A stretch of 52,626 nt of DNA from Deltaproteobacteria bacterium (lineage in GTDB: Bacteria; Desulfobacterota; GWC2-55-46; UBA9637): assembly GCA_016195725.1 (NCBI GenBank), contig JACPZB010000018.1:1-52626 (forward strand), given 5' to 3'. Shown here piece after piece: positions 14,285 through 18,560 of the stretch. How positions within the stretch are numbered: position 1 is the stretch's first letter; every line of letters starts with the position of its first letter. Made by a program: the position numbers and the translations under genes. The notes beneath the pieces are model-generated. The model was given only the letters and a program-made list of their open reading frames with translations. It ran no database searches and was not told the origin of the DNA.

Positions 14285-15541
14285 ATGTCCATAAAATCTG
14301 ATATCCAGCGCATAACCCAATCAGCCCGGCAGGCGTCTTTGAAACTGGCCAACCTGAACACATCTGTAAAAAACAATGCCTTATTAAGAATGGCTGACGA
14401 ACTTTTAAAAAATGCGGATGCAATGAAAAAGACAAACAAAAAAGACCTTCAGGCCGCAGAAGGTAAAGGGCTGTCTAAGGCCATGATAGACAGGCTTACC
14501 ATAAGCGACAAGGTCTTAAAGACCATGGCAGATGGCATCAGAGAGGTAGCAGCCCTGTCTGACCCTGTTGGCGAAATCACAAAAATGTGGAAAAGGCCGA
14601 ACGGACTTCTTGTTGGAAGGATGAGGATACCTCTCGGTGTCATTGGCATAATCTATGAGGCAAGGCCGAATGTTACTGCAGATGCGGCAGCTCTCTGCTT
14701 AAAATCCGGCAATGCCGTGGTTCTCAGGGGCGGCTCAGAGGCAATCAATTCAAATCTCGCCATTGCAAAGGTTTTGCAGGATGCTTGCAAAAAAGAGGGG
14801 ATTCCGGATACTGCAATCCAGGTTGTTCCAACAACTGACAGGGAAGCAGTGCTGGAGATGCTCAAACTTGAAGAGTATATTGATTTAATTATTCCGAGGG
14901 GTGGTGAAGGACTTATACGGTTTGTTGTAGACAACTCAAAGATTCCTGTCATCAAACACTATAAGGGTGTATGCCACATATTTGTTGATGAATTTGCAGA
15001 CATGGATATGGCAGAGAAGGTCTGCTTCAATGCAAAGGTGCAAAGGCCGGGTGTGTGCAATGCAATGGAGACTCTTTTGGTTCATAAAAAGATTGCCAAT
15101 GAGTTTCTGCCGAAAATGGGGAAAAAATATCAGGATGCCCATGTTGAAATAAGGGGCTGCGAAGAAACAAGAAAGATTCTCCCGTATGCAAGGCCAGCAG
15201 AAGAAGAAGACTGGTCTACAGAGTATCTTGATTTAATCCTATCAGTTAAAATTGTGAAAGATTTAGATGAGGCAATAAACCACATCGCAAAATACGGCTC
15301 TCTTCATACTGAATCAATTATCACAAAGGATTATAGCAATAGCCAGAGATTTTTAAGAGAGGTCAATTCTTCAACGGTCCTTGTTAATGCCTCTACACGA
15401 TTCTCTGACGGTTTTCAGCTCGGCCTCGGCGCAGAGATTGGCATATCTACAACAAAGATCCACGCCTTCGGCCCGATGGGGCTTGAGGAACTTACCACGC
15501 AGAAGTTTATCATTTTTGGAGATGGGCAGGTGAGAGAGTAA
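14285..15541 (+). CDS. proA: Gamma-glutamyl phosphate reductase
   Basis: It reduces gamma-glutamyl phosphate to glutamate semialdehyde with NADPH, the second step of proline synthesis. The 418-aa aldehyde-dehydrogenase-fold protein has normal length. The catalytic cysteine is in [12 protein letters not shown] (about residue 257), and the conserved IYEARPNVT and [10 protein letters not shown] segments are present. proB is not adjacent. It converges with the selenoprotein gene 5 nt downstream. Confidence 0.96.
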
Positions 15542-15546
15542 GAAAC

Positions 15547-16341
15547 CTATTTCTCCAAGTCCTCATACCTCCTCCACCGGTAAGGAAGGTCTCTGATAGT
15601 GCCGGGCTCTTTTATATCCGTCAATGCCTCTAATGCCTTTTTTAAGACAATGGCCTGCTGTTTTATGTTGAACGGCTCACCCAACGGATGTCCCAGAGGC
15701 CATTTCAAAAAAACAGCCCGCGGTGGTTTTATTTCTTCTGTGAATTTGCGCACAATGGAGATGCTTATAGTTGGTATGCCATACTTTTCTATCTCCCTCT
15801 GTATCAGTCCAACGGACCGATTGCACAAGCCTCAGCCAGGGGTTAAAAGCACTGCATCAACGCCTTGCGCCCTTAATTTTTCCGCCACCTCTTGCGCAGT
15901 TCCATTTATAAGCGTATAGATATGGCCGCCGTCTATATGCCCCATAAAACCAAAGTTTATTTCCGCAATATCAGCTATTTCACCTCTCTCTTTCAACTCT
16001 TTAAGCCTGTCTATGGGAAAAACGATGTTTATATCTTTATCTGCATCTTTATGGTCATAGTAATCGTGGGTTATGATAAATTGCCCTTTTGGAGTGTCTC
16101 GCGGGATTTCTCGAAAGGTGGGGTCTCCATTTGGGTCTTTCATGTTAAACGGTTTTTGGCTTTTGAGATGCACTCCTGCGGTTGTGGCAAGGGCTATCTT
16201 GCAGTCTTTGACAGGCTTTGTCAGAGGCGCCCATGGAATATCTTGTGCCTTCCACGGCGCAGCCTTTTTAACCCATCTTTCTACAAGGAATGGGAATTTG
16301 GTGAAGAGTTTTGATATGAGTTGGTTTTTTAATCTGCCCAT
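15547..16341 (-). CDS. GrdB/PrdB-like selenoprotein with in-frame UGA (selenocysteine 170)
   Basis: The 264-aa protein belongs to the glycine/sarcosine/betaine/proline reductase selenoprotein B family. A simple reading breaks it into 169 aa and 93 aa at TGA (15834-15832), but homology continues across the stop in the same frame: LLTPG-Sec-GLCNRSVGLIQRE. UxxC is the redox motif of this family. A SECIS-like hairpin follows the UGA (15803-15821). GrdB and PrdB use this Sec to attack amino-acid derived substrates. Stand-alone relatives outside Stickland fermenters have unknown substrates, and no partner Grd genes are present here. No clear Shine-Dalgarno is seen before the ATG at 16341. Confidence 0.88.
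15803..15821 (-). promoter_or_regulatory. Bacterial SECIS-like hairpin
   Basis: On the mRNA, 10 nt after the UGA, AUCGGUCC pairs with GGACUGAU through all eight positions (one G-U pair) around a GUU loop. The loop starts with G and sits 18 nt from the UGA. These properties match the usual description of bacterial SECIS elements bound by SelB. selA, selB and selD are not in the window. Confidence 0.75.
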
Positions 16342-16471: not shown

Positions 16472-16595
16472 CAAACGCAAGATTTGAGCCAAAGACAAGG
16501 AAAAGGTGGCTGGACAAAACGGAGCATACTCTTTTATGTATGTGAGTATTTGGACAGCCACCTTTGACACAGCATTTGGCCAAAGATTGCGTTTG
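16472..16595. repeat. 124-bp element with terminal inverted repeats (type 1 copy)
   Basis: The ends are CAAACGCAA (16472-16480) and TTGCGTTTG (16587-16595). Inside, GGTGGCTG (16505-16512) pairs with CAGCCACC (16555-16562) around a core GGAGCATACTC...GAGTAT. A related element of nearly the same length lies at 30300-30424. It has no coding capacity and looks like a non-autonomous (MITE-like) element. The 464-nt gap 16342-16805 that holds it has no other convincing gene. Confidence 0.75.
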
Positions 16596-16805: not shown

Positions 16806-17987
16806 TTAATTGGCGGCAGAGAAACAGCCTTTCACCCATCTAACGATTAACCTCCACGGCTTCGCCTTAACTCGCGACACTATTGCCGCATAGAATTCTT
16901 TGTAACTTTCCTCTCCCCTGACAACATTATAATATTTTTCCATGAGCGAAGGCTCTGACTCCAATATGCGATACCACAATCTTGGATAATTATAAACCCA
17001 ATTCCCTACTTTGGCTGCTGCCTCAAGTTCAGGATATAGCTCTGCTGCTACCGCCTCATTATAGCGGCTCAAGTCTATTTTATCATCATTTATTCTTTCT
17101 GATATAACCTTTGCGGCAAGCTGGCCGCTCCTTATAGCATAGTATATGCCTTCTCCGAGAAACGGGTCAACCAAATGTGCTGCATCACCTACCGCCAAAA
17201 TCCTCCCCTTAACTATCCTCTGCATCGTGTCATTAAAATAGGGTATTGTCCAACCGTGCATACTGCTTATGGTTGCCTGAGAAAGGCTCTTTTCCTTCTG
17301 AACAAAATCCGCAAAATATCTCTTTACGCGGCCTTTAACTTTTTTAGAAAGACCAGCTATGCCTACTGAGAGGCTGTTAGCTTTGGGAAAAACCCATGCA
17401 TATCCATGCGGTATGCAGCCAAAATCTATCAGAAGTTTTCCCTTTAAGGCTCCAAGTTTTCCTTTGTCAAAGGAAATCTCAGCCTCAATCGCAACAGCGC
17501 AAGCCTTTGCATCAAGCTCCAGCACCTCTCTTCCTACAAAACCATTTGCACCATCAGCGCCTATCAAAATCTTTGTCTTGTATAAACCTTGAGAAGTTTT
17601 GATATCTATAGAGTCGCCTGCCTCAGCAACAGCGGTTATCTTTTCCCCTTCCCTAATATCTGCGCCGGCTTCTTTTGCCTTTTCCTTTAAAAGGTTGTCA
17701 AATCTATCCCTGCTTACATTATAACCAATGACCTTTTGAGATAGTATAGGAAGAGACCTTCTTGACCTGTATGTGAAAATAGCGCCGTAAACTGTATCCT
17801 CTACAACTGCCTTGAAATCAAACGGCAATATCTTTTCAACCTTTAAGGATACGCAACCGCCGCACGGTTTATATCTGGGAAATTTTTCCTTATCAAAGGC
17901 AAGAACCTTTAACCCTCTGGAGGCGAGATCATAGGCAGCAGCTGCACCTGCGGGACCAAGACCGGACACAATCACATCATATATCAT
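16806..17987 (-). CDS. Geranylgeranyl reductase-family flavoprotein
   Basis: A 393-aa FAD-dependent oxidoreductase of the family that saturates isoprenoid double bonds. It shows the dinucleotide motif GLGPAGAAAAYDLASRG (about residues 9-25), PRYKPCGGCVS near residue 40 (typical of geranylgeranyl reductases) and the second FAD motif GDAAHLVDPFLGEGI (about 274-288). The substrate could be menaquinone side chains or another polyprenyl lipid; the neighbours do not settle it. It lies 12 nt after the ferritin-like gene on the same strand. Confidence 0.85.
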   Translation of the reverse strand: MIYDVIVSGLGPAGAAAAYDLASRGLKVLAFDKEKFPRYKPCGGCVSLKVEKILPFDFKAVVEDTVYGAIFTYRSRRSLPILSQKVIGYNVSRDRFDNLLKEKAKEAGADIREGEKITAVAEAGDSIDIKTSQGLYKTKILIGADGANGFVGREVLELDAKACAVAIEAEISFDKGKLGALKGKLLIDFGCIPHGYAWVFPKANSLSVGIAGLSKKVKGRVKRYFADFVQKEKSLSQATISSMHGWTIPYFNDTMQRIVKGRILAVGDAAHLVDPFLGEGIYYAIRSGQLAAKVISERINDDKIDLSRYNEAVAAELYPELEAAAKVGNWVYNYPRLWYRILESEPSLMEKYYNVVRGEESYKEFYAAIVSRVKAKPWRLIVRWVKGCFSAAN

Positions 17988-17999
17988 ACATCATGAATT

Positions 18000-18542
18000 T
18001 TATTCTAATTCCTTTTCTACACTGAATTCCATAAAATCGGCCCAAAAGCCTGTGCGCACAATAGACCCGTGCTCCCATCTCAAAAGCTTCAGGTGATTTC
18101 TTTCCATGTCAAGAATCTTTGTAATGACCGTCTTCTCATCCGGCTCACTTGCAGCCTTCAGCAGTCCTGAATAAAAATGAACAGCCTTTTCTTCTACTTC
18201 CACAGCAATAGTTACCGCACCTATTTCTGTCGGGTTCTGTTTCAACCTCTTTGTAAGCTCATTTTCTTCTAAAAATATAGGCGCCCCGCCTTTGTTCGGC
18301 ACTCCCTGGGCAACCGCATCATTGTAAGAAAGCCATCCTCCGCCGACATTGAATGACCTATTTATGGCACTCAATACTGTTATATGTTCAAGTTCTTCCT
18401 TAGCTAAATGACGAAACACATTTTGTCCATGCTCATCCTTTATTGCATTGGAGGCGGCGATGTAGAAACTATATCCTTCCATCTCAGTACGGACTGCTGT
18501 TTTAAGATTCTCTATAACTTTCTCTATAACCTTCTCCTTCAT
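18000..18542 (-). CDS. Rubrerythrin/ferritin-like diiron protein
   Basis: A 180-aa four-helix bundle protein with paired diiron ligands visible: TEMEGYSFY, EELEHITVL, EVEEKAVHFY and MERNHLKLL. Proteins of this type reduce peroxide or handle iron. There is no rubredoxin domain at the end, so the electron donor would be separate; desulforedoxin genes lie just upstream in the same direction. The ATG at 18542 follows GGAGGTGCTTG, a good ribosome site, and is preferred to the longer reading from 18560. Confidence 0.85.
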   Translation of the reverse strand: MKEKVIEKVIENLKTAVRTEMEGYSFYIAASNAIKDEHGQNVFRHLAKEELEHITVLSAINRSFNVGGGWLSYNDAVAQGVPNKGGAPIFLEENELTKRLKQNPTEIGAVTIAVEVEEKAVHFYSGLLKAASEPDEKTVITKILDMERNHLKLLRWEHGSIVRTGFWADFMEFSVEKELE

Positions 18543-18560
18543 CAAGCACCTCCAAAACAC

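Follow-up and report, generated by a model that had tools for sequence, protein, structure and literature searches.

D-proline reductase and glycine reductase use selenocysteine (Sec) as a nucleophile that attacks a carbon of the substrate. Sec-containing proteins recorded as 'PrdB' have been known from surveys since 2005, and the kind of protein we describe here is therefore known. In the relevant passages of the Sargasso Sea survey the Sec-containing 'proline reductase PrdB' is the third most abundant known selenoprotein family (PMC1088965), those of the GOS survey count PrdB 235 times together with 110 Cys homologues (PMC2398784), and a further survey lists a 'proline reductase', in the part concerned, for Anaeromyxobacter and Geobacter uraniireducens (PMC1794560). 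Another paper counts PrdB as one of the five bacterial selenoprotein families of widest distribution (PMC9312934). What is new, we argue, is that a large share of 'PrdB' constitutes a partnerless and mislabelled clade that is distinct from PrdB.

We have found that a 52,626-nucleotide stretch of DNA from a Deltaproteobacteria bacterium (contig JACPZB010000018.1; the whole stretch analysed, referred to here as the window) carries a stand-alone PrdB-like gene that is almost certainly a genuine UGA-recoded selenoprotein gene, a reading that follows from a TGA held at a fixed column in homologues, a SECIS element under selection and the presence of Sec machinery in the genome. When the TGA at 15832..15834 is translated as Sec, the minus strand holds a single open frame of 264 amino acids (15547..16341; ATG at 16341-16339, TAG stop at 15549-15547), whose start and length match those of relatives at 60-81% identity; standard ORF calling would end the product at residue 169. 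The first-pass annotation had proposed that homology continues in frame across this TGA (15834-15832) to give LLTPG-Sec-GLC, and translation bears this out as one 264-residue frame. The context of Sec170 (LTPG-U-GLC) reads LLTPG-U-GLCNRSVGLIQREIE, so that the protein contains the UxxC active site of PrdB as Sec170-Gly-Leu-Cys173. The codon of the putative resolving cysteine, Cys173 (15823..15825, minus strand), is invariant in the close family and is replaced by one for Asp (UPLD) in one distant branch.

The SECIS apical hairpin starts 10 nt after the TGA, on the minus strand at 15803..15821, and is supported by comparative pairing, covariation and synonymous constraint. As DNA (15821-15803) it reads ATCGGTCC-GTT-GGACTGAT and in its RNA form ATCGGTCC-GUU-GGACUGAU, with eight pairs, all stem positions paired and a GUU loop; the fully paired 8-bp hairpin that had been described at this distance is thus present, one of its pairs being a G·U wobble. 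Over 67 close homologous genes 96.6% of stem cells are paired. Sliding the partner strand by 1-3 nt lowers this figure to 8.8-53%, and shuffling same-amino-acid codons among the sequences never equalled the observed stem pairing (0 of 2000 shuffles). Compensatory exchanges between U-A and C-G and between G-C and A-U occur in the stem within the close family, and in 42 distant genes 89.6% of stem cells pair, again with C-G, U-A and other exchanges. Synonymous choice within the stem is likewise constrained: the Ser codon at +6 is TCC in 83% of cases against a background of 24%, the Gly codon at +8 is exclusively GGA or GGG (66/66), and the Leu codon at +9 is CTG in 85% against 31%. The fold energy of the window gene taken alone is mildly unusual, since 3% of synonymous recodings fold equally well, and the case for the predicted SECIS element is carried by this comparative evidence rather than by single-gene fold energy. 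A search with Rfam at the gathering threshold gave no match within the window.

A protein search finds a homologue in 42 of the 63 genomes of the host's class, usually as one full-length copy. Forty of these 42 best matches contain one in-frame TGA; of the others, one has none (Deltaproteobacteria bacterium GWB2_55_19, our G015) and one is a C-terminal fragment short of the Sec site (G023). In 29 of 30 class loci that we inspected the TGA occupies the same column; the remaining one, that of GWB2_55_19 (L047/L100), has GGA (Gly). We note that in this genome the SECIS hairpin is intact and selA is still there; its GGA means either that Sec was lost here naturally and recently or that the assembly is wrong. 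A profile search of the phylum detected relatives in 87 of 395 genomes, and almost every one of these relatives has a single TGA; Sec is read in every distant phylum homologue inspected. At L164, where motif matching had produced an artefactual AGA, the Sec site is TGA. A scan of named genomes places homologues in deltaproteobacterial MAGs, Nitrospirota, Geobacteraceae, Desulfuromonadales, Nitrospinota and others, including Geothermobacter hydrogeniphilus HR-1 (L150). It had been suggested that homologues be aligned to see whether Cys replaces Sec at position 170, and this exchange was found in distant homologues from the aerobic alphaproteobacteria Roseomonas and Haematobacter, which read VPN-C-PVCHQ at the Sec column, indicating that the residue at this site is functionally important. 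We also note a homologue with an extra in-frame TGA close to its C-terminus (L193, G116:C2) and, in another genome (G045:C28), a second copy of the selenoprotein gene that is split over three frames.

The host assembly encodes SelA (604 bits), SelB (372 bits) and SelD (371 bits), all three of the proteins that the first-pass annotation had proposed to look for. The host selD, which lies at a contig end (L060 1-240, C91 of its own genome), is itself Sec-containing, with a TGA in SCAGUAAK. The host draft (90.5% complete, 115 contigs) gave no tRNA-Sec, its top hits being ordinary tRNAs, and the RF01852 hits in the host genome were rejected as tRNA-Sec for the same reason; a tRNA-Sec above the cut-off is present in five of eight family genomes, one of them that of the congener, and ARAGORN reports tRNA-Sec with anticodon tca in four of those five. 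Across the 63 class genomes selA and the selenoprotein gene occur together in 37, are both missing from 15 and occur one without the other in 11 (Fisher p=3.6e-6), and in one genome (G045:C39, L204) the selenoprotein gene follows selA on the same strand at a distance of about 50 bp.

The pyruvoyl-type partner of these reductases appears to be missing. PF09338 (PrdA/GrdE) matched nothing in the host draft or in a sample of 17 genomes from the class, many of them 98-100% complete. Nor did it match in 81 of the 87 genomes of the phylum with a relative, and in a positive control the model detects real PrdA. The earlier statement that glycine or proline reductase partners are lacking thus holds genome-wide in the draft, and it was this missing partner that had led to the suggestion of a new substrate or a thiol redox role. 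The clade either lost the usual partner proteins or never had them. A PrdB-type gene on a plasmid of Peptoclostridium acidaminophilum (L227) also has no annotated prdA in the stretch shown.

Taken whole, with its inferred steps, the explanation that we find best, and in which our belief and our doubt are about equal, is that the window protein is a PrdB-related selenoprotein that acts without PrdA or GrdE and whose Sec would serve as the nucleophile in the cleavage of a small substrate. The chemistry itself, a nucleophilic reductive cleavage, is suggested by homology to D-proline and glycine reductases, and we put it forward somewhat more tentatively. An AlphaFold model of the protein (pLDDT 92, pTM 0.90) places Sec170 between a strand (163-167) and a helix (171-185), and this predicted strand-Sec-helix placement is one in which reactive selenolates are commonly seen. 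Neither a Foldseek search against the PDB, which gave no match at E<=0.001, nor a sequence profile against PDB chains, which gave one insignificant hit only, identified a solved relative, and so the fold comes without a functional hint. In the mechanism we propose, the protein would be a single-subunit enzyme, soluble or membrane-peripheral, in which Sec170 at the helix N-terminus would attack an electrophilic centre, carbon or heteroatom, in a small substrate held in a pocket that may include the HDYYDH segment (residues 92-97; 16051..16068, minus strand). The leaving group would then depart, Cys173 would resolve the Se-adduct as a selenenylsulfide, and the latter would be reduced by thioredoxin or another dithiol. 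The enzyme would thus work like D-proline reductase PrdB, except that its substrate would need no Schiff base with a pyruvoyl group; because there is no pyruvoyl partner, the substrate could not be bound through a Schiff base in that way, and a different electrophile is to be expected. A cytochrome oxidase cluster lies at 9.8-14.1 kb of the window, so the host probably respires and Stickland-type D-proline reduction is unlikely; we consider a role in housekeeping or detoxification, in bacteria that respire, more likely than one in Stickland fermentation.

A less probable explanation, though the best placed of the alternatives, is that the protein is mainly a thiol/disulfide redox protein, either thioredoxin-type or a metal- or thiol-handling reductase, and cleaves no bond of a small substrate. 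UxxC is a redox motif, several lineages have redox, copper or sulfur neighbours (CopA-type P-ATPase, cytochrome c, rhodanese, rubrerythrin), and the published survey of the Sargasso Sea, in its treatment of PrdB, places the protein with thiol-redox selenoproteins (PMC1088965). However, the predicted fold, for which Foldseek returned no solved relative, is not thioredoxin-like, and many invariant residues lie away from UxxC, as expected of a substrate pocket. In addition, the UPLD branch keeps Sec and has Asp for the resolving Cys, suggesting that the second Cys is dispensable somewhere and that a UxxC cycle is not universal; distant partnerless homologues of this form are L188, L191 and L196.

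The genes around the selenoprotein gene bear on a further possibility, that a non-homologous and unrecognised partner supplies the carbonyl or the electrons. Upstream and co-directional on the minus strand are genes for a geranylgeranyl-reductase-family FAD protein (16806..17987), which is a neighbour in 9 family and order loci, and for a rubrerythrin/ferritin-like protein (18000..18560), which is kept in 7 loci; both are, at most, putative accessory genes of the selenoprotein. An aldehyde-dehydrogenase-family gene, probably proA, is downstream and convergent (14285-15541). We note that the 465-nt gap between the FAD gene and the selenoprotein gene contains an inverted-repeat (MITE-like) element (window 16472-16595), of which there are about 10 longer copies elsewhere in the genome (84-125 nt, 75-94% identity) together with shorter fragments. 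When neighbours were clustered over 80 named loci and the window, they proved lineage-specific, with geranylgeranyl reductase and rubrerythrin, CopA-type ATPase, cytochrome c, rhodanese or methyltransferase nearby; in the other lineages a CopA-type P-ATPase is found at 14 loci, cytochrome c at 10 (most of them with an intergenic distance of 0-42 nt) and rhodanese at 11. Among L096-L115 and L163 a CopA-type P-ATPase and a small cytochrome c stand directly upstream of the selenoprotein gene, in 14 and 10 loci respectively, and the ATPase of L102 has two YHS and two HMA domains. Matches of neighbouring metal ATPases to NF041115 ('metal-binding (seleno)protein') had raised the idea that these too contain Sec, which we dropped as no conserved in-frame TGA was seen.

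Conserved neighbours of this lineage-specific kind could be read as candidates for such a partner, and the characterised PrdB/GrdB enzymes are reportedly always heteromeric (Kabisch et al. 1999). We nevertheless regard a partner of this sort as improbable, given that no neighbour is common to all lineages among the 80 named loci and the window and that no single pathway is indicated; the adjoining genes vary from IlvC, IspG, BioA and UvrB to CopA, and single loci with IlvC, IspG, BioA, UvrB or arylformamidase adjoining look incidental. The lack of a universal neighbour supports a stand-alone protein.

That the protein is a real subunit of a D-proline (or glycine or betaine) reductase whose partner is missing from the draft or encoded elsewhere is close to refuted, even though its best NCBIfam match is PrdB (TIGR04483, 4.5e-62), it shares 41-45% identity with clostridial PrdB and the draft is just 90.5% complete. 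Its PrdB score (209.6 bits) falls below the curated cut-off of 300, as its GrdB score does (TIGR01917, 58 against 602 bits), whereas it passes the gathering cut-off of Pfam GRDB (PF07355, 44.9 against 22 bits); with 264 amino acids it is not of full GrdB length, it has no GrdE partner in the draft, and the PF09338 model that detects PrdA finds no such protein in the host or in the 17 class genomes. Compared with genuine PrdB, for which the comparison sequences come from plasmid records, it has a 36-residue N-terminal extension of predicted amphipathic basic helices (16234..16341, minus strand), a two-residue insertion at MGHI, and HDYYDH where partner-dependent PrdB and GrdB sequences have HGGYD. 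All seven GrdB and PrdB sequences in the comparison have HGGYD, but a distant partnerless protein (L213) has it too, and the motif is therefore suggestive rather than diagnostic, an imperfect separator of the groups. In a tree of 73 proteins, GrdB and PrdB are split from the other 66 with support of 99/93, and the window protein falls outside the PrdB grouping, on the other side of the tree; the drawn root is arbitrary and branches are long, those of genuine GrdB and PrdB included. On these sequence comparisons the partnerless clade is very probably distinct from PrdB, and the window protein is very probably not a proline reductase, its usual label being probably wrong. Finally, one could suppose that the TGA simply terminates translation, or that it stems from a frameshifted pseudogene or from an error of sequencing, and cite the GGA of one class genome in favour. 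This is refuted by a TGA at one column across several phyla, by a SECIS that covaries and by the 60-81% identity at which the frame downstream is conserved.

If many 'PrdB' proteins occur without PrdA, then the label 'D-proline reductase' is wrong for these proteins, and the mislabelling concerns a frequent use of selenium. The close family, with the 67 genes of the SECIS analysis, and the single-subunit design make the clade directly testable. We entertain, with rather more reserve than assurance, the idea that the PrdB-related selenoproteins acting without PrdA or GrdE form a separate class of single-subunit, pyruvoyl-independent selenoenzymes that would reductively cleave a common metabolite or xenobiotic, that would have gone for twenty years under the name 'proline reductase PrdB' and whose fold has no solved example. 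We found no discussion of a partnerless PrdB-like family in open-licence papers.

Among known systems, PrdB (TIGR04483; Terrisporobacter, Acetoanaerobium noterae, Ligilactobacillus salivarius) is the nearest to the window protein, sharing the 41-45% identity over about 220 amino acids and a Sec-GxC at the same column, from a TGA with the downstream frame kept. PrdB nevertheless has HGGYD, MG-GGG and no N-terminal extension, where the window protein has HDYYDH, MGHI and the extension, and PrdA is adjacent in Terrisporobacter and L. salivarius whereas the window protein has no PrdA in the draft. The PrdB of the environmental and genomic surveys (PMC1088965, PMC2398784, PMC1794560) resembles the window protein, as far as the relevant passages describe it, in its Sec-UxxC and in coming from sources not known for Stickland fermentation; those passages count it as D-proline reductase and contain no discussion of an absent PrdA or of a separation from true PrdB. 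Matched by description rather than by sequence, the surveyed 'PrdB' and the window protein probably belong to the same broad group. GrdB/F/H (PF07355, TIGR01918) likewise have the GRDB domain and a UxxC site, but at about 435 amino acids, with UxxCxxC and the partner GrdE, they are only 23-26% identical to the window protein, so that the early description of the latter as 'GrdB/PrdB-like' was correct, with PrdB by far the closer of the two. The Roseomonas/Haematobacter protein, named 'glycine/sarcosine/betaine reductase selenoprotein B family protein' at NCBI, shares a broad clade with the window protein and has no partner on the plasmid region seen, but differs in its 25.9-27% identity, in its Cys in place of Sec and in its aerobic hosts. 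Lastly, the farB/farE fluoroacetate reductase of Cloacibacillus is a GrdB-type Sec enzyme proposed to cleave non-C-N bonds and, unlike the window protein, retains a GrdE-type partner (PMC10838667).
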